The notes under the pieces are model-generated. The model did not search any database and had not been told where the DNA came from. It saw only the letters and a program-made list of their open reading frames with translations. The translations under genes and the position numbers were made by a program. From a virus: DNA of 26,297 nt. Positions 3,225-20,089 of this stretch are shown piece by piece (the stretch's first letter is position 1; each line of letters starts with the position of its first letter). The stretch is from the IMG/VR virus record IMGVR_UViG_3300020185_000228, positions 1-26,297 of that record; one strand, written 5' to 3'.

Positions 3225-3491
3225 CTAATTGTTGTGCTTGTAGGAAGTATCAAAGAGGTCCATCAAAATATCAAGTAGGTTATCATCATCCTCAAATTCA
3301 TCTTCATCCATAATGAGTGACACAAGCTTGTAAAGTTCACCGGGGCTAATACCAAGACTACCAAGGTCTTCATTATTACGAATAGCATTGCGAACGTCCT
3401 CAAGTCTGTGGTGAGAAAGAATATAATCAGCAGAGGGCGAGGGGTGGCTTTCTTTTAGGTATCCTCGCCAATTTTCAAGTAGGAGTTTCAT
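3225..3491 (-). CDS. Tag-first protein (MKLLLENWR leader), acidic helical body
   Basis: The protein has 88 residues. It begins MKLLLENWRGYLKES, the shared leader of this cluster, with YLKE forming an L-x-E site like those cut by T4-type prohead proteases. The body (SADYILSHHRLEDVRNAIRN, then an acidic EDEFEDDDNLLDILMDLFD helix) matches no family I know. The ATG overlaps the upstream stop as ATGA and no good ribosome site precedes it, so translational coupling is likely. I infer a head-internal protein carried with the DNA, by analogy with T4 internal proteins. Confidence 0.8.
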   Translation of the reverse strand: MKLLLENWRGYLKESHPSPSADYILSHHRLEDVRNAIRNNEDLGSLGISPGELYKLVSLIMDEDEFEDDDNLLDILMDLFDTSYKHNN

Positions 3492-3901
3492 TTTTCTATC
3501 TTTTGCCCGCTGATAAGGATTACACTGCCTAGCCTTCTAAACTCCATCGTATCTGTCAACTTTCCGTCTATCAGTGCCATTGCATGCTCTTTAGACGAAA
3601 GATAATATACACCTTGAGGATGTTCTGCTATAAATTTCTTTAGAGTAGGACGCCACCTTTCCATAGCTGCTCTTTGCCACCAACTATATATGTTAACAGA
3701 TTTATATCCCAGCTCTTTTGTAAGGGTCATATAAACATCAATGCCGTCAGTAAATCCATCACACACTTCGTTATTCGGATCTGCAAGTTTATCCTCATCT
3801 CCGAAGTGGGTAGCTATTGCTCTCACTGTGGCATTTGTACATACGCTTGCTGTAGCCATTTCTGTTATATACTGTCTCCAATTTTCAAGTAGCAGTTTCA
3901 T
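3488..3901 (-). CDS. Tag-first papain-like cysteine peptidase candidate
   Basis: The protein has 137 residues. The leader MKLLLENWRQYITEM contains an I-T-E site at 12-14. The body resembles the phage papain-like fold whose pattern is Cys...VRAIA, then GxYxxxxxxHAxAxxDGxxxDT: here Cys21 in SVCTNATVRAIATHFGD, His106 in GVYYLSSKEHAMALIDG and Asp117 in KLTDT. After cleavage at ITE, Cys21 would lie near the new N-terminus. The assignment is from pattern memory, without a search; loss of activity or use as a binding domain is possible. ATGA overlap couples it to both neighbours. Confidence 0.7.
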   Translation of the reverse strand: MKLLLENWRQYITEMATASVCTNATVRAIATHFGDEDKLADPNNEVCDGFTDGIDVYMTLTKELGYKSVNIYSWWQRAAMERWRPTLKKFIAEHPQGVYYLSSKEHAMALIDGKLTDTMEFRRLGSVILISGQKIEK

Positions 3902-4311
3902 TTTCTATATTCATCATCCCAATCAAACTTTTCTTCTCCGTCATAAACGTGACGAAGGGTATCATGGTACGTTCCGCTATAAACATAAGCATCAAAACCA
4001 TTTTCGCCAGCCAGCCATTTTTGAAATATCCGATGGTTACCATCTTCAACTAGCAATTGTTTCTTATCGATATTATAGAATAACACAGGTAACCCATCTG
4101 TCATGCTCAGTTCACCACGCCATATATCTGATAATACACCCTCGCCCTGCTTAGTAATCATACTTAACGATTTAAATGGAATATTCTGAACCAAGACTCC
4201 TTCTTCGCCTTCTTCCTCATCAAACTCTTCTTCTCCTTGGAGAATCTCAATAGGAAGAAAGTTCAACTCTTCATTCAAATACTGACGCCAGTTTTCAAGT
4301 AGGAGTTTCAT
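3898..4311 (-). CDS. Tag-first protein with ParB/Srx-like domain
   Basis: The protein has 137 residues. The leader is MKLLLENWRQYLNEE with L-N-E at 12-14. A glutamate-rich linker (about 26-40) is followed by a domain with PVLFYNIDKKQLLVEDGNHR and IFQKWLAGENGFDAYVYSG. The DGNHR...G.....V pattern is that of ParB/sulfiredoxin-like proteins (compare DGHHR), which can have nuclease or ATPase activity, although the domain is short here. The C-terminus is acidic and aromatic (FDWDDEYRK). A GAGG ribosome site lies 8 bases before the ATG. I infer packaging in the head; the domain call is moderate. Confidence 0.7.
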   Translation of the reverse strand: MKLLLENWRQYLNEELNFLPIEILQGEEEFDEEEGEEGVLVQNIPFKSLSMITKQGEGVLSDIWRGELSMTDGLPVLFYNIDKKQLLVEDGNHRIFQKWLAGENGFDAYVYSGTYHDTLRHVYDGEEKFDWDDEYRK

Positions 4312-4532
4312 TTAAGTGTCCTCTCCACAGTATTAACCAGCGCTTCCAGTTGCTCAATTACTTCAACGGGGATCTCCGCTTGATTTCCATATATAGCAGC
4401 CAAAAGTTCAGCAACATCGCCTTCAAACTTAATAACTCTCTGAATGGGTTCTTCTGGAGCAGCAGACGATGAGGGAAAATCAATCACTTCCCCTTCCATT
4501 AGTTTTCGCCAATTTTCAAGTAGGAGTTTCAT
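4308..4532 (-). CDS. Tag-first short acidic protein
   Basis: The protein has 74 residues, beginning MKLLLENWRKLMEGE, with LME as the possible cut site. The remaining 59 residues (VIDFPSSSAAPEEPIQRVIK, then helical EVIEQLEALVNTVERTLK) have no recognisable family. The start overlaps the SNase stop (ATGA) and the end overlaps the next tagged gene. It may be a small internal head protein. Its small size after cleavage resembles T4 internal proteins in scale only. Confidence 0.75.
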   Translation of the reverse strand: MKLLLENWRKLMEGEVIDFPSSSAAPEEPIQRVIKFEGDVAELLAAIYGNQAEIPVEVIEQLEALVNTVERTLK

Positions 4533-4864
4533 TTTTTATATTCCTCTGCATAGCCTTCATTAACTAGTTTGTGGCATATGTTTACATCATTTTTAAATAT
4601 AGTTCCGAGACACCTGCCGTACTTGCCAACACCATGAGACTGCAAAACGAACGGGTCATCCGGAGAGCCCATAATCTCTTTGAGAAAGGCTTTTGCTTTC
4701 AACCCGTGCTCCTTTTCGGTTAAGTTTTTTGTGCGCGTCTCGGGGGCGTCAATGCCGTTTAAACGTATGCGCTTCTTAACCCATACATCAAAACCTAAAT
4801 CGATTATTGCATCAATGGTATCTCCATCTATAACTCGAATCAATTTAGCGCGGTATGTATACAT
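4529..4864 (-). CDS. Staphylococcal nuclease-like (SNase) endonuclease
   Basis: The protein has 111 residues from the ATG at 4862-4864, which overlaps the preceding stop as TAATG; a longer frame back to 4885 lies inside the upstream gene and is unlikely. It shows the SNase pattern AKLIRVIDGDTIDAIIDLG, RIRLNGIDAPETRTKN and an AKAFLKEIM helix, then VGKYGRCLGTIF with HKLVNEGYAEEY near the end. Conserved Asp in DGDT, Arg/Asp/Glu in RLNGIDAPE and Arg in YGR match the calcium-dependent nuclease. It lies directly before the tagged genes but has no such leader. Could serve host DNA degradation or DNA ejection; function inferred. Confidence 0.85.
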   Translation of the reverse strand: MYTYRAKLIRVIDGDTIDAIIDLGFDVWVKKRIRLNGIDAPETRTKNLTEKEHGLKAKAFLKEIMGSPDDPFVLQSHGVGKYGRCLGTIFKNDVNICHKLVNEGYAEEYKK

Positions 4865-7344
4865 TATGATATAAAGTTTCGCCAAGACTTAACGAGATTC
4901 TCGTTGATATTATCACCTTTCACATCAGGGACATATAATTTTTTCATCTCAACAAGGGTTTCGTTAAAATCAGCAGCCAAATTATCCTCGTCGTCCGCAT
5001 CTCCTGTGACTAGTTCCCGAAATAACTCAGACATTTCATCAGGCTGATCAGCGTTTACCATAAATGTTACTGTTAGTTTTATATCCGACCCTTCTCCATC
5101 CTGACTGACTCTTGCATCATAATCTAAATAATATTCTGAATCAACTTCTTTTCGTGCGGCATACAATAGTTTCTGTTTCAGCGAAGTCTTAAACTCGCGC
5201 GAGTCTATAATCTTTATCATAACTAATGGATCCATGCCCCAATCTGCAGGTTCATAATAAAAACTATATTTAGCGGTTGCTTCATAACTCTCATCATATC
5301 CTCCGTCTGTCTCTAGATCCCACTCATATGATTCCAAGTCTCCGTCCTCTATCTCTCTGGCTAGTTTTATAAACGCCCCACCTGACATATAACCTTCATC
5401 CTTGAAAAAACTCTCAAGCATAGATTTATACATGTCTCTTTTGTCATCCTGTAAGTCAATAGCGGCGCACGTGTTTTCGTAGTCTTCAACCATTACCAGA
5501 TATTGACCGTTGCCACCGTTATCTGGATGTTCTAGATTAAATTGGCAAGACCATTTAACACCCTGGTTATCCGGCAGGTAACTTACCCTAGCAGTGCTTG
5601 CAACGAATATATCTCCCATACGATCATTTATATGCTCCGCCGACCACAGGTCCACAGCACCGGGATTAGGATAACTGCTCCACTCGTTAGCCTCCCACTT
5701 AAAATGCAATGTAGCAGAAGCGTCTATATAAAAATCATCACCTCCGTCATCCTCAACGCTAGCCTCAACATGAGTGTTCGCGTAACGGTTGTTCCACTCT
5801 TCAGATATAGCGTTGACTTGATTCTCCATGATCCCGCCGGGGTCTCCCAGATCTTCTGGTGTTAGTTCATCTTCATCATCACTGTTTATTTGAACCTCTC
5901 CTTCTATATACTCTCTGTAATCATTTGAATCAAAAAGAAATCTAGATAACAGGCTATTGGGAGCGGTATCAAAATATGTGCCTCCAAATAAATAAAAGTT
6001 TTCACCATCAAGCTTTCCTGACTCTGTTTTTGGAAAATCTTGTATAGACTCAATATCTTGTGTAGCCGAAGCCCAAGAAGTTATTCTATTTAGTAGTCCC
6101 GGTATATTTCGACCGTATACTCTAATCTCTGGAACAGCTAGTTCCGAACCATCGTTCCAGTTTTTAGGCTTTAAGCTGCCTCCTACTGAAGACAACACAT
6201 TATCCTGATAATATGCAAACTTCCTAAGTCTGATTCTTGACTCGGGAGTTATACCCAATCCAATATCGCCTCCTCTGGTCTCATCTTCAAATATTTCTCC
6301 TGATTGGATCACTGATTCGGCTTCTTCTATATTTTTAGCTCCGGTTGCCTTTAAAAGATCATCTGTTGAGACAACGTATGCAACTGCACCATGTCCCTGA
6401 GCCTCTGCAACAGCGCATTTATAATATGACTGGTAAACACCTTCCTGGCTAGGAGGAGAATGACATGAAGTTATATCTTCAAAATCGCTCATTCGTAATA
6501 CATCGATTGGGTGCCGAGTGACGATTATACTATATGTGTCATCTCTCATTCCGCTTACCTTCTCTTTGATAAATCCTGCGTTCTTCTGCCAGTAATCACT
6601 CAGACCAGCAGCCCAGTCTGCTGCTGCGGTGGGTTCGAGTTGAGTTTTTTTAATGGAATCATAATCGGCTCGCATACTCCGATTCCGGCTAAGAACAGGT
6701 TTCTTATATAGACCTAAAAGTCTTTGCATATCGGGTAGATATACATTAAGAAGGTTGTGAATCTGATAAAATCTTTTTAGTTCTTCATCAGTGAGAATCT
6801 CTGAAATCTTTTTTCTAATACCCAGAGCAGCAAATCGTGTCTCATAGGGCTCTTGTGGAGGTGCGGCTATCTTATCGATGTATACTTTTTGTTTTTTATA
6901 TAAATCAACAATCTTTGCCAAGAACTTACCAATTTTCATAGTAATTTTCTTAGATTTAGTTTGTCTACCTTTCGAATCAGAATCCCATTTCAATTCTGGA
7001 TACTCTTGTATCGCAGAAATCATCCCCTTATCCCAATCAACCTCATAACCCTGTGTTTCGAAGAATGAAATAAATTTACCAATTTCAGTAGACTCATCTT
7101 TCGTTGGAAAATCAATTATAAGGCGTGTTTTGTCTTTAAAAACATTACCTAGGGATAAAGCGCCGTCGAGAGCGATATCATCAAGAATGGATTCTATGGA
7201 TTCCATTTCACCTTCTGTTACTTCTCGGAGCACACTTTCAGAACCTGCATATAAATCAGTTGTTTTTGACCCAGGATTGATAAGTTTATCTAGATTTTCT
7301 AATAATCTTACTGATTTAAGCAGTATTTGTTCATTACTAAGCAT
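4864..7344 (-). CDS. Large phage protein of 826 residues, probable virion component
   Basis: Largest gene of the window. The N-terminal 260 residues are mostly helical and charged. The best conserved block looks to be residues 277-325: RHPIDVLRMSDFEDITSCHS, then CAVAEAQGHGAVAYVV, with two Cys and one His that may be functional. Later comes an acidic beta-rich part with many YESY/EWDL-like strands. The final 13 residues, NENLVKSWRNFIS, resemble the leader of the tagged genes but at the wrong end. TGGAG lies 5 bases before the start. I recall similar long proteins in marine phage metagenomes without a known role. Position between packaged-looking proteins suggests a virion role. Confidence 0.75.
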   Translation of the reverse strand: MLSNEQILLKSVRLLENLDKLINPGSKTTDLYAGSESVLREVTEGEMESIESILDDIALDGALSLGNVFKDKTRLIIDFPTKDESTEIGKFISFFETQGYEVDWDKGMISAIQEYPELKWDSDSKGRQTKSKKITMKIGKFLAKIVDLYKKQKVYIDKIAAPPQEPYETRFAALGIRKKISEILTDEELKRFYQIHNLLNVYLPDMQRLLGLYKKPVLSRNRSMRADYDSIKKTQLEPTAAADWAAGLSDYWQKNAGFIKEKVSGMRDDTYSIIVTRHPIDVLRMSDFEDITSCHSPPSQEGVYQSYYKCAVAEAQGHGAVAYVVSTDDLLKATGAKNIEEAESVIQSGEIFEDETRGGDIGLGITPESRIRLRKFAYYQDNVLSSVGGSLKPKNWNDGSELAVPEIRVYGRNIPGLLNRITSWASATQDIESIQDFPKTESGKLDGENFYLFGGTYFDTAPNSLLSRFLFDSNDYREYIEGEVQINSDDEDELTPEDLGDPGGIMENQVNAISEEWNNRYANTHVEASVEDDGGDDFYIDASATLHFKWEANEWSSYPNPGAVDLWSAEHINDRMGDIFVASTARVSYLPDNQGVKWSCQFNLEHPDNGGNGQYLVMVEDYENTCAAIDLQDDKRDMYKSMLESFFKDEGYMSGGAFIKLAREIEDGDLESYEWDLETDGGYDESYEATAKYSFYYEPADWGMDPLVMIKIIDSREFKTSLKQKLLYAARKEVDSEYYLDYDARVSQDGEGSDIKLTVTFMVNADQPDEMSELFRELVTGDADDEDNLAADFNETLVEMKKLYVPDVKGDNINENLVKSWRNFIS

Positions 7345-7438: not shown

Positions 7439-7882
7439 TTACTCCTCTTTGTCGATATTTGCACGCTCTTGCCAGTCGGATGACACGCTATCTTCTTTTA
7501 TTGGACCGCCCTTTGCCCATGTTCGGCAAGATCTGGCACTGTGGCACTTAAAGTGGTGCATCCAACAGTACCCAAGTAGACCATCTTCATCAGAAGTCTC
7601 TCCTGGCATGCACTGCAGCATTCGAGGAGATATATCAAAAGCAACGCAGTTACCACATTGCGATTTCGTAGCAGCTTCGGTGGTTGTATTCCAGTATTCT
7701 GCTATGCTTTCCCAGTAATCTCCTGGTTCATCAACGTTTAAAGGTCCATATTGGACGTGTTCTGCTTGAATAGCAGAATCTCTGTTCTTAGTATTGAGTT
7801 CTATGTCTTGAGTTGCCGGCGGGCACACTAAACTTTTTGCTTCCTTAATAAACTTTTTAAAATTTTCTAATATTAGTTTCAT
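7439..7882 (-). CDS. Tag-first cysteine-rich (metal or iron-sulfur) protein
   Basis: The protein has 147 residues. Its leader MKLILENFKKFIKEA is the diverged form of the MKLLLENWR tag and the closest here to the T4 internal-protein leader MKTYQEFIAEA; IKE at 12-14 is the possible cleavage site. The body carries Cys at 76, 79, 91, 106, 113 and 119 in QCGNCVAFDISPRMLQC and GYCWMHHFKCHSARSCRTWA, ending KGGPI. This spacing recalls small [4Fe-4S] proteins of HiPIP type, or a zinc fold; I cannot decide. GGAG precedes the ATG. Similar sequences are common in marine phages. Confidence 0.75.
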   Translation of the reverse strand: MKLILENFKKFIKEAKSLVCPPATQDIELNTKNRDSAIQAEHVQYGPLNVDEPGDYWESIAEYWNTTTEAATKSQCGNCVAFDISPRMLQCMPGETSDEDGLLGYCWMHHFKCHSARSCRTWAKGGPIKEDSVSSDWQERANIDKEE

Positions 7883-9069: not shown

Positions 9070-9510
9070 TTAGACATTCTCCAGTACTTTCTCCAATAAA
9101 TAGATCGGAATCTCACTATTGTCGAGGTCTTTTATTTCTTCTAAGTTCGCCCACTTCCAATCATCGTGCTCTATTTCACCAGTTATGGGATTTGGAATGT
9201 CGACGTTTATTTCTCCTGACCACTCTCTCGTCAAAAAGTAGTGCTTTTTTGGCTTAGGTTCGCCCAAATAGGTCAGATTTTCTATATTGCACACTAAGCC
9301 CGTCTCTTCTTTTAACTCTCGACATGCGCCATCCTCGATAGAAGAGTCCTCATCATCGATATGACCTCCAGGGATAGTCCACTGCCCCCCGCGCTCATCG
9401 ATATTTGAACGTCTAATAATAAGAAATCGCTGCTTATCATCAAGGCAAGCAACGATCCCCACATCTTTAAGTTCACCTTCGGTTAAAAAGTTGTTCCATT
9501 TAACGTTCAT
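9070..9510 (-). CDS. Nudix hydrolase with a tag-like leader
   Basis: The protein has 146 residues. Nudix box: PGGHIDDEDSSIEDGACREL followed by KEETGL, with the REL.EE.G core intact and one extra residue in the first half. VGIVACLDDKQRFLIIRRS and QWTIPGG precede it as expected. Nudix enzymes cleave nucleoside diphosphate-linked compounds; substrate unknown. The N-terminus MNVKWNNFLTEGEL resembles the capsid-targeting style leaders nearby (aromatic, F-L-T-E site at 8-11), so it too may be packaged. The start overlaps the protease stop by 11 bases. Confidence 0.85.
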   Translation of the reverse strand: MNVKWNNFLTEGELKDVGIVACLDDKQRFLIIRRSNIDERGGQWTIPGGHIDDEDSSIEDGACRELKEETGLVCNIENLTYLGEPKPKKHYFLTREWSGEINVDIPNPITGEIEHDDWKWANLEEIKDLDNSEIPIYLLEKVLENV

Positions 9511-12003: not shown

Positions 12004-12219
12004 CTAAGAATTAATAACTACATACTGACCAAGATTCCCGTGAAATGTCCAGGTTTCATATCCAACTTTAGGAAAGTATATAAGCATCATAGGGGATTTA
12101 GCATCAACCTTCCGAACATAGCCGAGTCCACGCTCTTCCAAGTGGGGGTTACTCGACGCAGGTGTCGGTACATATTTAATCCACGATCCAATGATGGCTG
12201 GCTCCCTATCAGATTTCAA
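12004..12219 (-). CDS. Small GSW-type relative of the GDLV family
   Basis: The protein has 71 residues from TTG (12217-12219), which overlaps the previous stop as TTGA. IIGSWIKYV replaces GDLV, GLGYVRKVDAKSPMMLIYF is the second strand pair, and GNLGQYVVINS the end. The start is less certain than most because it is TTG and lacks a good ribosome site; coupling to the upstream gene could compensate. Confidence 0.55.
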   Translation of the reverse strand: MKSDREPAIIGSWIKYVPTPASSNPHLEERGLGYVRKVDAKSPMMLIYFPKVGYETWTFHGNLGQYVVINS

Positions 12220-12497
12220 ATTTTAATCCGGTCAATAATATATGGGTGATGGAAGGAGAGATCTTTATAAAGCTTCTTGATAATCTGTTTTGAGATATCT
12301 GCCATTTCTTTCTGAGTACTCTTATCACTCATAATAGTTTTAAGCTCTTCTTTTACTATTTTTTCTACCGACTTTTCTACTTCGTTCTTGAGTTCATCTT
12401 TGATCTGCTTTTTGATCATTCGCTCAATATCGTTCTTATCTGTTTTCGTTAGCTCTTCGTTTATAAGAAGCTTAAGTTCTGTGACGGTAAATTTCAT
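12216..12497 (-). CDS. Helical protein with INEEL leader
   Basis: The protein has 93 residues. The N-terminus MKFTVTELKLLINEELTK belongs to the second leader type seen here (compare LKQIIKEEL), with I-N-E as potential protease site. The rest is lysine/glutamate-rich helix (IERMIKKQIKDELKNEVEKS and onward) and ends KKLYKDLSFHHPYIIDRIKI. I recall close relatives of the C-terminal block in marine phages. Probable coiled coil. GAGG lies 8 bases before the ATG, and an ACTATTTA motif (12515-12522) stands just upstream. Confidence 0.7.
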   Translation of the reverse strand: MKFTVTELKLLINEELTKTDKNDIERMIKKQIKDELKNEVEKSVEKIVKEELKTIMSDKSTQKEMADISKQIIKKLYKDLSFHHPYIIDRIKI

Positions 12498-13889: not shown

Positions 13890-14324
13890 TTAATTTTTTG
13901 TTGGTTTCAGCGCTGCTAGCATCGATTTTGTGCCGTGACGTTTGATCGCTTGACGTATATCCCCTAAAGGGAACTGACCGTCGCTAGCGAACTTCCGAAG
14001 CAGGTGAACATATTTGCGTCCACCGTATTTTCTAGAACGTGATGCCATCCATTTAACAAGCAAGACCACATCAGAATCGTCGATATCGAGGTTATCGCTA
14101 GCATCCATCCACTCTCTCCAATCGTCCCATAATGCCATGGCATCGTCAAACTCTTTTTCTTCAGGTGGTATTACGGGCTCTGGTGGTAACTTTGCTTTCG
14201 GTTTCGGCATGCGCGCAGGGTCCACGTCAAACCCTAACGCGGGATCGAACACTTTAGCCTCTGTCAGAACAGCGCTAAGCTCTTCCTTGATAATCTGCTT
14301 AAGTCTTACTTTGGTTATCTTCAT
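13890..14324 (-). CDS. Protein with IIKEELSAVLTEA leader, unknown function
   Basis: The protein has 144 residues from the ATG at 14322-14324 with AGGAG 10 bases upstream; the frame continues to 14405 but that part lacks a ribosome site. The leader MKITKVRLKQIIKEELSAVL then TEAK closely matches the spacers of the composite protein at 7886-9067 and carries I-K-E and L-T-E sites. A proline-rich linker (about 30-55) leads to a helical domain (FDDAMALWDDWREWMDASDN, LLRKFASDGQFPLGDIRQAI). Perhaps a second class of packaged proteins; inference only. An ACTATTTA motif lies 36 bases upstream. Confidence 0.7.
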   Translation of the reverse strand: MKITKVRLKQIIKEELSAVLTEAKVFDPALGFDVDPARMPKPKAKLPPEPVIPPEEKEFDDAMALWDDWREWMDASDNLDIDDSDVVLLVKWMASRSRKYGGRKYVHLLRKFASDGQFPLGDIRQAIKRHGTKSMLAALKPTKN

Positions 14325-17381: not shown

Positions 17382-18674
17382 TCAACCATCTACAGCTATG
17401 ATCCGCTCGTTGGTTTTAAAGTAAGGGCGATCTGCGTTAGCTTTGTTCGTCATCCACATCCTCTGACACTTGCTAGCGATAGGCTTAGGCGCGCACAAGT
17501 CTGTTAGCACGATATGACCATCAAAGCCCTGTTCGTTAACGTACTTAGTTGGGGCGTTAAAGCAAGTACCGCCATTCAATACCCGCTCAGTGACCCTAGT
17601 TTGTCCCTTCTTCCAGACATATACCTTATCTTTTGCAACTTTTGTATCAAAGGGAACGATCGTGAATTCAGCAATTTGAGCTAGCTTGTTCAGTTCTGAG
17701 AAAAACATAGCCAGCATATTATCATCGACAGATCCAGACTGATCGATACTAATCGCAATCTTTGCGTGACGGCGCACGCGCTTACCAGCGTGAACACGAG
17801 GAAAGCGCTTGTTAAGGCGTCGAGGAGTCGATTGCTTATCAGACCGCTGAGATGTTTTAACGAAATACCTAAGAACCTTACGCCAATCGATCTTAGTTGT
17901 AATACGTTCCATAATCGACTGGCGCATACTGCGGGAAACTGTACCCCAACTGCGAGACTTTTCAGCTTCTTCAGCTGCGCTCTTGATAGCATCCTTTAAG
18001 CGTTCTTTGGCGATCTCCTGGGTTGTACTGTCACCCTCTCCAAATCCTTCGTGAGAATCAAAAGAATCAGCACCACCAAAAGGATCACCACCAGAGGGAT
18101 CGCCACTCTCGCTAGAGCCTTCCCCACTCTCGCTGGAACCCTCGCCCTCTTCTTTCTCCTGCTCTTCCCCCATCTTCTTAAGTGCTATCAAATACCACTC
18201 ATAAGACATACAAGACGGAAGATCTTTAAATGGACCCTCGCCAGGAAATACTCCAACCATAGGATTGCCCGATGGCATCATAGGACCAGGGTTTGATTCG
18301 CTTGGCAGCTTTCCCTTCATCTCTGGCAAACCGTTAATAGCGAGATCCATCGCGATATTATCGATACGCTGAATACCCTCGGATGGCTTGCGTCCGGTAA
18401 CGTGTTCGAATATGAGATGATAAAATTCGTGCATCAGAACGCCAAGCTTGTGTTCATCGCTCAGCGCTCCCATGAACTCAGGGTTATACAACAATTCAAA
18501 CTGCGCTGTATCCGGGTTCATACGGACACCGGCGGTAGGAATCGCGTTAGTTGGAGTCTTATCAATTCGCCGCGAGATAGAAGCAAAGAACGGCTCTTTG
18601 AGCAGCAGGCGCGCAGCGTGCATATTAAGGTTGAAAGCGATGGGTTCGGGCTTAGGATCTTCAGTGTTCATCAT
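17382..18674 (-). CDS. Metallopeptidase-like/VWA domain protein (MoxR partner), leaderless
   Basis: The protein has 430 residues. The N-terminal domain has VLMHEFYHLIFEHVTG (His82, Glu83, His86) and NIAMDLAIN, the pattern of DUF2201-type VWA proteins with a metallopeptidase-like first domain. A low-complexity Gly/Ser/Glu linker (about 176-218) follows. The C-terminal VWA-like domain keeps the MIDAS metal site: IDQSGS (Asp312, Ser314, Ser316), GGT (Thr371) and LTDL (Asp393). Such proteins work with MoxR AAA ATPases, here encoded just upstream in the same direction. The ATG falls exactly at the predicted transcription start, so translation is probably leaderless. Confidence 0.85.
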   Translation of the reverse strand: MMNTEDPKPEPIAFNLNMHAARLLLKEPFFASISRRIDKTPTNAIPTAGVRMNPDTAQFELLYNPEFMGALSDEHKLGVLMHEFYHLIFEHVTGRKPSEGIQRIDNIAMDLAINGLPEMKGKLPSESNPGPMMPSGNPMVGVFPGEGPFKDLPSCMSYEWYLIALKKMGEEQEKEEGEGSSESGEGSSESGDPSGGDPFGGADSFDSHEGFGEGDSTTQEIAKERLKDAIKSAAEEAEKSRSWGTVSRSMRQSIMERITTKIDWRKVLRYFVKTSQRSDKQSTPRRLNKRFPRVHAGKRVRRHAKIAISIDQSGSVDDNMLAMFFSELNKLAQIAEFTIVPFDTKVAKDKVYVWKKGQTRVTERVLNGGTCFNAPTKYVNEQGFDGHIVLTDLCAPKPIASKCQRMWMTNKANADRPYFKTNERIIAVDG

Positions 18675-18734
18675 GTATACATTATCTCATATGCGAGAGA
18701 GAAAGTCAACCTAGTTCTGTCAAGTAGATGTCAA
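18674..18734 (-). promoter_or_regulatory. Compound early promoter, copy 2 (leaderless, ATGTATACAT type)
   Basis: TTGACA (18729-18734), TTGACA (18718-18723), TTGACT (18704-18709), 17-base spacer, GATAAT (18681-18686). The next six bases are GTATAC, then the ATG of the VWA gene at position +1. The two distal hexamers overlap the end of the gene at 18720-19010, whose stop TGA is part of one TTGACA. Confidence 0.85.
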
Positions 18735-19010
18735 CTCCCACTCGGCAGCTAGCTCCGTTTCGCTAACTGAGATCTCCTTTCCTGTCGATGGGTTGATGAC
18801 TTTATAAGCAAGGCGCGTACCGCCCCACTTTTCCGATTTAAGATCATCTTTCGATGTTCCGTAACGTGGGCGATGCGTATCACGAACTTCGATCACAATG
18901 TGCAACGCAGCAGATCCGCTAGCGGATCTGCGCACGATTAGCTCGCCTTTGACCAAAGGTCTATCAATTGTTGATAGACTCTTAATCATCGCCAAGCGGC
19001 GCGATCTCAC
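18720..19010 (-). CDS. 96-residue protein between the ATPase and VWA genes
   Basis: Begins at GTG (19008-19010) overlapping the ATPase stop as GTGA, or at the ATG of MIKSLSTIDRP seven codons later. RPLVKGELIVRRSASGSAAL, HIVIEVRDTH, GGTRLAYKVINPSTGKEISV and SETELAAEWEL suggest a small beta-rich fold, somewhat like the GDLV barrels. Co-transcribed with the MoxR-type ATPase; it could adapt ATPase to VWA protein, but this is inference. Its end overlaps the next promoter. Confidence 0.65.
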   Translation of the reverse strand: MRSRRLAMIKSLSTIDRPLVKGELIVRRSASGSAALHIVIEVRDTHRPRYGTSKDDLKSEKWGGTRLAYKVINPSTGKEISVSETELAAEWELTST

Positions 19011-20089
19011 TGATTGCCGCCAAGGATTTCAACAAGGTGCTCGGAAACACGTCGACCGCTAGCGGATTGCGCCTTGTGGAGCGCGATCACATTCTCAATC
19101 TTCTCGGTATCGCCGATCGCTGTCCAGAGCTTCATGGCGACCTCGCTAGGGAGCGTTACAAAGTACTCCGCAAGGTTCGAAATCTGATCAGCGGAAAGTT
19201 CGACATCAAATACCTTCGAAGCTTCGAACTTCTCAATCATTGCAGAATGATCATTAATGCCCCACTTTGCTGTCTTATCGATCTCTCCTCGTTCTAGGAT
19301 ATCTTCGATCGAAACCTGCCATTCGTACTTTTCAACAAAATCACGAAAGGATACAGCTGCTTCAAAGCCAACAAATGCGGTTGCGAGATGAAAGAGCAGA
19401 TCGCGATCGCCTTCCTCATCAAACACACCAGCCGGCACCAGGGTATCGTTAAGGCGCGTCCAAGATCGACGAGAAGGATAAACCTTATTAGGCTCGTAAT
19501 CCCCAATGTGCTCCAAATGTGTGCGGTTGTGATTGATGAAATCCCACAAAATGCCGTTGACGTTAGCCTGAGCCCACTTAAGCCAATCCTCAACAGAGGG
19601 ATCCACGTCAAATACAGACCATCGATCCAGTTCTGCCGGATCCATCTCTCCAACTTGGTATTGTGAACCGTGATCACCGCCATTGACAGCTGCGATAATC
19701 AAAGTATCAGGGTGCAAATGCCAACCGTTAATCTTGCGGCTATCCGTCAACTCAAATAAGCCTTGACGAACTTCCATTACTGCGCGATCAACCTCATCGA
19801 GAAATAGCACAACTGGGTTAGCGCACGCGGTTACTAGCCAGTCGGGAGCGTTCCAAGTGGTTGCCTTGCGCCCATCGATCTCGGAATCTGCGGTATCTGG
19901 CAATCCCAACAGATCGCCTTCCGTCATTTGAGAGGCGCGACGTTCGATAATCGGCAGCCCACGCTCTTCAGCAATCTGATAAACAACTTGCGACTTTCCG
20001 ACTCCATGACGACCGCGAATAAGGACGGGCAACTTGGCTGCAAGAATGTGGGGTACAACTGAGGTAAAGGTTGCGAAGTCTACGGACAT
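19007..20089 (-). CDS. MoxR-type AAA+ ATPase
   Basis: The protein has 360 residues. Walker A GRHGVGKS at 26-33, Walker B VVLFLDEVDRA at 93-103, sensor-1 IIAAVNGG around Asn136 and an Arg in PAELDRWSVFDVDP (about 156) give a complete MoxR/AAA_5 ATPase. The MTEGDLLGLPD segment (55-65) is the usual insert after the first strand. The C-terminal 150 residues are helical. Family members remodel or load protein complexes together with VWA proteins, and one is encoded two genes downstream. CAGGAG lies 9 bases before the ATG. Promoter at 20129-20194. Confidence 0.9.
   Translation of the reverse strand: MSVDFATFTSVVPHILAAKLPVLIRGRHGVGKSQVVYQIAEERGLPIIERRASQMTEGDLLGLPDTADSEIDGRKATTWNAPDWLVTACANPVVLFLDEVDRAVMEVRQGLFELTDSRKINGWHLHPDTLIIAAVNGGDHGSQYQVGEMDPAELDRWSVFDVDPSVEDWLKWAQANVNGILWDFINHNRTHLEHIGDYEPNKVYPSRRSWTRLNDTLVPAGVFDEEGDRDLLFHLATAFVGFEAAVSFRDFVEKYEWQVSIEDILERGEIDKTAKWGINDHSAMIEKFEASKVFDVELSADQISNLAEYFVTLPSEVAMKLWTAIGDTEKIENVIALHKAQSASGRRVSEHLVEILGGNQ

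Follow-up and report, generated by a model that had tools for sequence, protein, structure and literature searches.

A 14-residue leader shared by unrelated proteins of uncultured marine phages: a probable capsid-targeting tag with exchangeable cargo

Why should neighboring viral genes with dissimilar products begin with one and the same short peptide? The question is raised by a 26,297-base stretch of viral DNA (the window, a whole IMG/VR record that is probably a piece of some larger genome) in which, according to an earlier sequence-only reading, four consecutive genes at 3225–4532 share one N-terminal tag. Re-reading of the window confirmed this run, as well as the coordinates and leaders of all the tagged genes, which without exception lie on the minus strand. 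Gene 1 (3225–3491) encodes an 88 aa protein with an acidic body of no assigned family behind the leader MKLLLENWRGYLKE (3450–3491), which ends in YLKE; gene 2 (3488–3901) encodes a 137 aa protein of phrog_3754, of unknown function, with the leader MKLLLENWRQYITE (3860–3901) ending in YITE; the product of gene 3 (3898–4311), also 137 aa long, has a DGNHR motif in its body and the leader MKLLLENWRQYLNE (4270–4311) ending in YLNE; and gene 4 (4308–4532) encodes 74 aa, its leader MKLLLENWRKLME (4494–4532) being shorter by one residue, with L-M-E. Neighbors in this run overlap by 4 nt (ATGA-type). A fifth gene (7439–7882; 147 aa, cysteine-rich), which had been credited with a related leader, bears one of the same MKLLLENWR type (MKLILENFKKFIKEA / MKLILENFKKFIKE, 7841–7882). 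The leader common to these five genes, MKLLLENWR-x-[YF]-[LI]-x-E (hereafter, A-type), matches the window five times, and the reversed pattern does not match at all.

The bodies behind the leader are unrelated, as had been surmised, in that BLAST detects no relation among those in the window. The papain-like and ParB-like labels that had been attached to some of them did not hold: there was no Pfam match above the cut-off and the models were of low confidence (pLDDT of 45 and 57 for genes 2 and 3), the ParB-like character of gene 3 is apparent by eye only, and a sequence search found no PDB relative of this protein. The homologs of gene 2 in IMG/VR are near-identical copies only. Matches to the T4 late promoter (TATAAATA) number four in the window, compared with two expected, an uninformative result.

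The A-type leader is widespread. When viral contigs were searched with a fully degenerate DNA pattern for leaders of the MKLLxENW type, in which positions 9–14 were left free, at least 119 stretches matched; among the matches listed, the tag is borne by 273 IMG/VR proteins (of at least 50 aa) in 103 BLAST body clusters. The latter figure sets an upper bound on the number of families, given that remote homologs fall into separate clusters and that a small number of members are spurious. Counted by cluster, R9 is found in 84 of the 103, an aromatic residue or histidine (Y/F/H) at position 11 in 97, L/I/V/M at position 12 in 96 and E14 in 85, with no conservation in the tagged proteins past residue 14. 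The tag is confined to the N-terminus: its core lies within residues 1–28 of 229 proteins (110 body clusters), compared with 5, 0 and 0 in three equal internal windows, and so is far beyond chance. In 23 related records, the leader pattern gave 102 matches and the reversed DNA pattern none. Among ~85,000 cellular genomes (257 Gb), there were two matches, both soon running into stop codons; by this sequence criterion, these appear to be spurious and the tag to be restricted to viruses. The A-type leader was not found in cultured phages of the collection searched, nor was a published account of it found in the open literature, where full-text searching for a sequence string has little power. As far as can be judged from predicted proteins, then, one 14-residue start is common to dozens of unrelated proteins in a large group of uncultured marine bacterial viruses.

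The end of the leader is equally distinctive. The motif [LIVMF]-x-E is observed in residues 10–19 of 94 of 98 tagged proteins, and in only 14–18 of the 98 in later windows. When E14 is missing (18 leaders), a displaced site is kept in 12 cases (YLLTE, QLLVE, TRLHE, NNLLAE), compared with 3–6 in control windows; such retention of a shifted L-x-E is to be expected of a cut site rather than of a rigid docking motif. The leader end would therefore seem to behave like a cleavage site, cleavage itself being inferred, not observed. A few leaders lack any L-x-E. In one pair with bodies 94% identical (L052 2249, MKLLLENWRDTSWE; L108 2429, MKLLLENWRQYITEDWRDTSWE), the L052 leader seems to have lost the L-x-E segment through a short deletion and may be a natural candidate for an uncut leader.

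The absence of a prohead protease had been named beforehand as an outcome that would refute a head-loading role of the leader, but a gp21-type enzyme is present in the relatives. PF03420 (T4 gp21, peptidase S77) is detected in every one of the 12 records that bear the leader and are 130 kb or longer (E-values from 1e-25 to 1e-35; the base rate in large marine phage contigs is unmeasured) and in 6 of the 43 shorter ones. A distance of some 65–110 kb separates the main leader cluster from gp21 in the long records, which is why short fragments seldom show the two together. The window, as a 26 kb fragment, contains neither a protease gene nor a capsid gene, so that the link to both rests on relatives; one of these, a 194 kb record with gp21 (G001; L012), has six gene families in common with the window.

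The major capsid proteins of the tagged phages are gp23 relatives. In the capsid alignment, LLRE/A, LLKE/A, LISE/A and IVSE/A (the slash marking the putative cut, which was itself not observed) fall on FLTE/A of T4 gp23, the known cut site (E65/A66). The most conserved element of the propeptide in the same alignment is LL-x-KW...LLEG, with an invariant W; it resembles LLENW...LxE, which suggests, in the absence of a test, that the leader may imitate the core-binding arm of the capsid protein. By sequence affinity, the tagged phages are far-T4-like (for far-T4 phages, see PMC4360716), and among named phages the closest capsid proteins are those of Rhodothermus phage RM378, Microcystis phage Mel-JY01 and Flavobacterium phage immuto. 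A gp21 is annotated in all three, and the A-type leader is absent from the stretches of them that were read. Tagged genes are also found beside the protease itself. In 8 of 11 relatives, the gene adjoining gp21, or one gene off, starts with an A-type tag (MKLLLEHWNRYLQE, MSEMKVIIERWDRYINE, MKNEEFKIINERWDRYLKE and others) or with a second, B-type tag described below (MKITKLRLRRIIKEEI, MQIKKSRLRQIIKEEV and others), by a count that was made by eye and includes degenerate forms. The gene order read in T4 is 20-67-68-21-22-23, and these flanking positions are those where T4 keeps the core proteins 67/68/22.

The best explanation, to which a probability of about 80% can be assigned, is that the leader is a capsid-targeting propeptide, like the CTS of T4, that is cut by gp21 and serves a much larger and rapidly exchanged cargo; packaging, cleavage and injection are all inferred. 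As the prohead grows, its scaffold core would be bound by the initial ~14 residues, which probably form a short amphipathic helix; a gp21-type protease would then cut after L/I-x-E at about residue 14, and the mature bodies would stay beside the DNA in the head and accompany it into the next host. Loading would require the tag alone and, therefore, any body could be attached, with exchangeable clusters of tagged genes carrying nucleic-acid-repair, nucleotide-acting, protein-modifying and unknown activities. To this extent, the initial interpretation of a capsid-targeting leader with swappable cargo is supported. Its comparison with the T4 start MKTYQEFIAEA stands for the layout, an aromatic residue followed by [LI]-x-E, and fails for residue identity. 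The features in common with T4 IPI–III and Alt, which have a CTS cut by gp21, are a short N-terminal peptide on unrelated bodies, that layout, a gp21-family protease, a gp23-type capsid with the same cut motif and hypervariable cargo. Unlike the T4 signal, which reads MKTYQEFIAE/A in the internal proteins re-read from the record and spans 10 residues, the leader MKLLLENWRxYLxE spans 14; T4 tags only a handful of proteins, compared with ~100 body clusters here; and the tagged phages add a further tag class within their genomes and a family tagged at the C-terminus, packaging being unproven. In T4, the first 10 residues suffice, with residues 8 and 10 governing processing (PMC9026906). Thus, a handful of tagged head proteins was known from T4, and what is new is the far larger scale, the second tag class, the turnover and a different tag sequence. 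The leader differs in sequence from the T4 CTS, and both its removal and the presence of the tagged proteins in virions are inferences only; the tagged proteins are therefore not assigned to the T4 internal-protein family. The few leaders without L-x-E, a C-terminal tag without this motif in one family, and the lack of identity to the T4 CTS beyond layout are points against the capsid-targeting reading. No virion proteome of the tagged group was found and, to judge from the collection searched, no member has been cultured.

The family with the C-terminal tag is represented in the window by an 826 aa protein (4864–7344; tag ENLVKSWRNFIS, about 4867–4911). In this family (L012, L013, L024, L073 and others), the A-type core E-x-[LIV]-V-K-x-W-[KR]-x-[FY]-[LI] is C-terminal in 21 members and N-terminal in 4, with L009 tag-like at both ends; T4 Alt is likewise processed at both ends (PMC9026906). 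No L-x-E follows the C-terminal tag. The existence of such a family, along with a helix predicted at low confidence over leader residues 2–13 and aromatic and aliphatic residues that would suit a docking helix, leaves some room for an uncut tag. The tag might then be an address for the tail, the cell envelope or the replication compartment, or else a peptide that docks onto a single phage protein, with the L-x-E forming part of the docking helix. Such a role is improbable given that L-x-E is retained even when moved by a few residues, that the tag is carried by genes adjoining the prohead protease, and that the L-x-E/A site occurs in the capsid proteins of the group as well.

The B-type tag, MKITKxxLKQIIKEEL...LxE, starts 67 body clusters at the same loci as the A-type. 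E14 is present in 66 of the 67, and another [LIVMF]-x-E is observed at residues 17–25 in 49 (4–5 in later windows); the tag is N-terminal in 69 clusters and internal in 3. The window contains two such genes, one for a 93 aa protein (12216–12497; leader MKFTVTELKLLINEEL, homologs with MKITKKQLKRIIIEEL) and one with the start set at an internal ATG at 14324 (13890–14324; leader MKITKVRLKQIIKEELSAVLTE). Genome G007 has 15 genes in which an A- or B-type tag was found, and 13 of these are located within 3–16 kb. Probably, the second class serves the same job as the first. B-like leaders are also present in immuto and in the uncultured phage LR756508. Two candidates for further general classes, the C-terminal A-type and EAIxxLLRKHLRG, were rejected, each being restricted to one family.

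Gene turnover between sister genomes is concentrated at leader genes. The window and its sister L008 have long flanking blocks that are 80–93% identical and cassette arrays that differ, L008 having extra leader genes before and after 4308–4532 and lacking genes 1 and 2, and the homology blocks stop within leader DNA. The body of gene 3 is 98.6% identical to that in L008 and the leader only 85.7%, the L008 leader being 95% identical to another one on the same contig. When all loci are taken together, 464 homology ends are obtained, 52 of which are located in a leader on both sides, compared with 0–4 in shifted controls. Such ends involve 52 of 279 leaders vs 54 of the 1032 remaining gene starts, in pairs that are not independent of one another. 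Since BLAST extends through any conserved leader, these ends show enriched turnover, not crossover inside the leader. Leader replacement as a rule was rejected: leader and body are similar to about the same degree in most ortholog pairs, and swaps are therefore occasional. Codons 3–5 for Leu (CTC CTA CTT) are common to 48% of pairs of unrelated genes, compared with 0.8% expected, a degree of sharing beyond codon usage that is consistent with exchange through leader DNA. The leaders of the HAD family nearly all have CTC CTA CTT and those of the HiPIP family are synonymously diverse, as though one part of the cargo moved about and another stayed in place. The mobile regulatory cassettes of T4-type phages are promoter cassettes, whereas the repeat in the tagged phages is a coding leader. 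The likeness to these cassettes lies in short repeated DNA that accompanies modular gene shuffling (Arbiol et al. 2010, cited in PMC4177764).

The shared Leu codons and the hotspots at leader genes could also be taken to mean that the leader acts chiefly at the DNA or mRNA level, as either a recombination anchor or a translation-start element, with the peptide as a by-product. This is very hard to sustain when the tag is encoded by 72 different 24-mers, residues 9–14 hold although the codons vary, and the unrelated second tag obeys the same L-x-E logic. A Shine-Dalgarno/leader CTCCT hairpin as the cause of the shared codons failed as well, SD-like sites being rarer with CTCCT and the folding energy hardly changed. 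The same conclusion follows from the Nudix hydrolase of the window (9070–9510), the identity of which was confirmed and which had only tentatively been credited with a related leader (MNVKWNNFLTE, 9478–9510, the core alone). That suggestion was borne out by the core W-x-x-F-L-T-E being kept: W-x-x-[FYVH]-[LIVM]-x-E is found in 20 of 23 short homologs and is encoded by 20 different DNA sequences, which implies selection at the protein level. Nudix homologs bear either xxKWNxFLTE or the full MKLLLENWxxxLNE (MKLLLENWQEVLNE, MKRLFENWHHFINE).

Other systems resemble a capsid-targeting leader in part. The Dar antirestriction proteins of phage P1 are loaded into the head via an N-terminal signal (the targeting signal of DarB) and delivered to the host (PMC9024508), a parallel to the loading inferred here, but no consensus is common to their N-termini, and a separate scaffold system appears to be missing from P1 (PMC9024508). 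No DarA or DarB homologs were among the families shown by Pfam and PHROG scans of the 98 tagged proteins, with no search by name. In giant phages of the SPN3US/phiKZ type, the prohead protease strips N-terminal propeptides from inner-head proteins (PMC5694885); unlike the leader, these propeptides mostly exceed 100 residues and are not common to many unrelated proteins.

Most of the 98 tagged proteins had no match in Pfam, PHROG or PADLOC scans. The matches that were obtained include protein kinases, AAA_33/polynucleotide kinase, zeta-toxin-like proteins, poly(A) polymerase/tRNA nucleotidyltransferase, 2H phosphoesterase, Nudix, DEDDh exonuclease, GNAT, HNH, HAD RNA-repair and S-AdoMet lyase, among others; the ADP-ribosyltransferase likeness of some bodies is by eye only. 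Several of these activities would suit counter-defense on entry, an inference from annotation; T4 IPI acts against GmrSD, and IPIII is needed on strain ECOR17. Conversely, the tRNA nucleotidyltransferase and Nudix cargo would also make sense as ordinary intracellular enzymes. The fifth leader gene, previously taken for a cysteine-rich metal protein, is indeed related to proteins annotated 'high potential iron-sulfur protein' (HiPIP), and its homologs bear MKLLFENWKKFINEA and similar leaders. A distant homolog without the leader is encoded by Actinomycetia phage DSL-LC01 (OQ999401.1, 63051–63785; L165), where it sits directly before the capsid maturation protease genes.

A broader and distinctly tentative proposal is that far-T4-like marine phages possess a general code for loading the head, two or more tag classes (MKLL[LFM]ENWRxYLxE and MKITKxxLKQIIKEEL...LxE) directing some 100–170 families into virions from turnover clusters in which leader DNA would act as the recombination anchor, so that injected effectors are swapped almost as in an integron. 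If the leader is indeed a capsid-targeting tag, a feature of T4 becomes a readable code, and the proteins injected by uncultured ocean phages could be named from a motif in their raw sequence. The candidate first-minute effectors (kinases, GNATs, nucleases, RNA-repair and nucleotide-acting enzymes and many unknowns) would then be listed for counter-defense tests, and the tags might be portable for loading proteins into phage heads. Leader-anchored exchange, if it holds, would explain the turnover of such repertoires.

Several further observations pertain to these genomes. In the 484 kb uncultured phage LR756508.1 (L177, 25745–31624), a run of proteins with YRGT-type motifs, ADP-ribosyltransferase-like by eye, lies near a T4-like capsid gene; these proteins start with MKFKELLKEQ, MRLKNVLLKEQ, MKLKGILKEA and similar sequences and are possibly a third tag class with Alt-like cargo. 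In the window, 1053–1763 encodes a HELMH metallopeptidase-like protein, many homologs of which end in a common helix, EAIxxLLRKHL[KR]G. By eye only, 19007–20089 is a MoxR-like AAA ATPase gene and 17382–18674, in the same region (17382–20089), a VWA/metallopeptidase-like gene.
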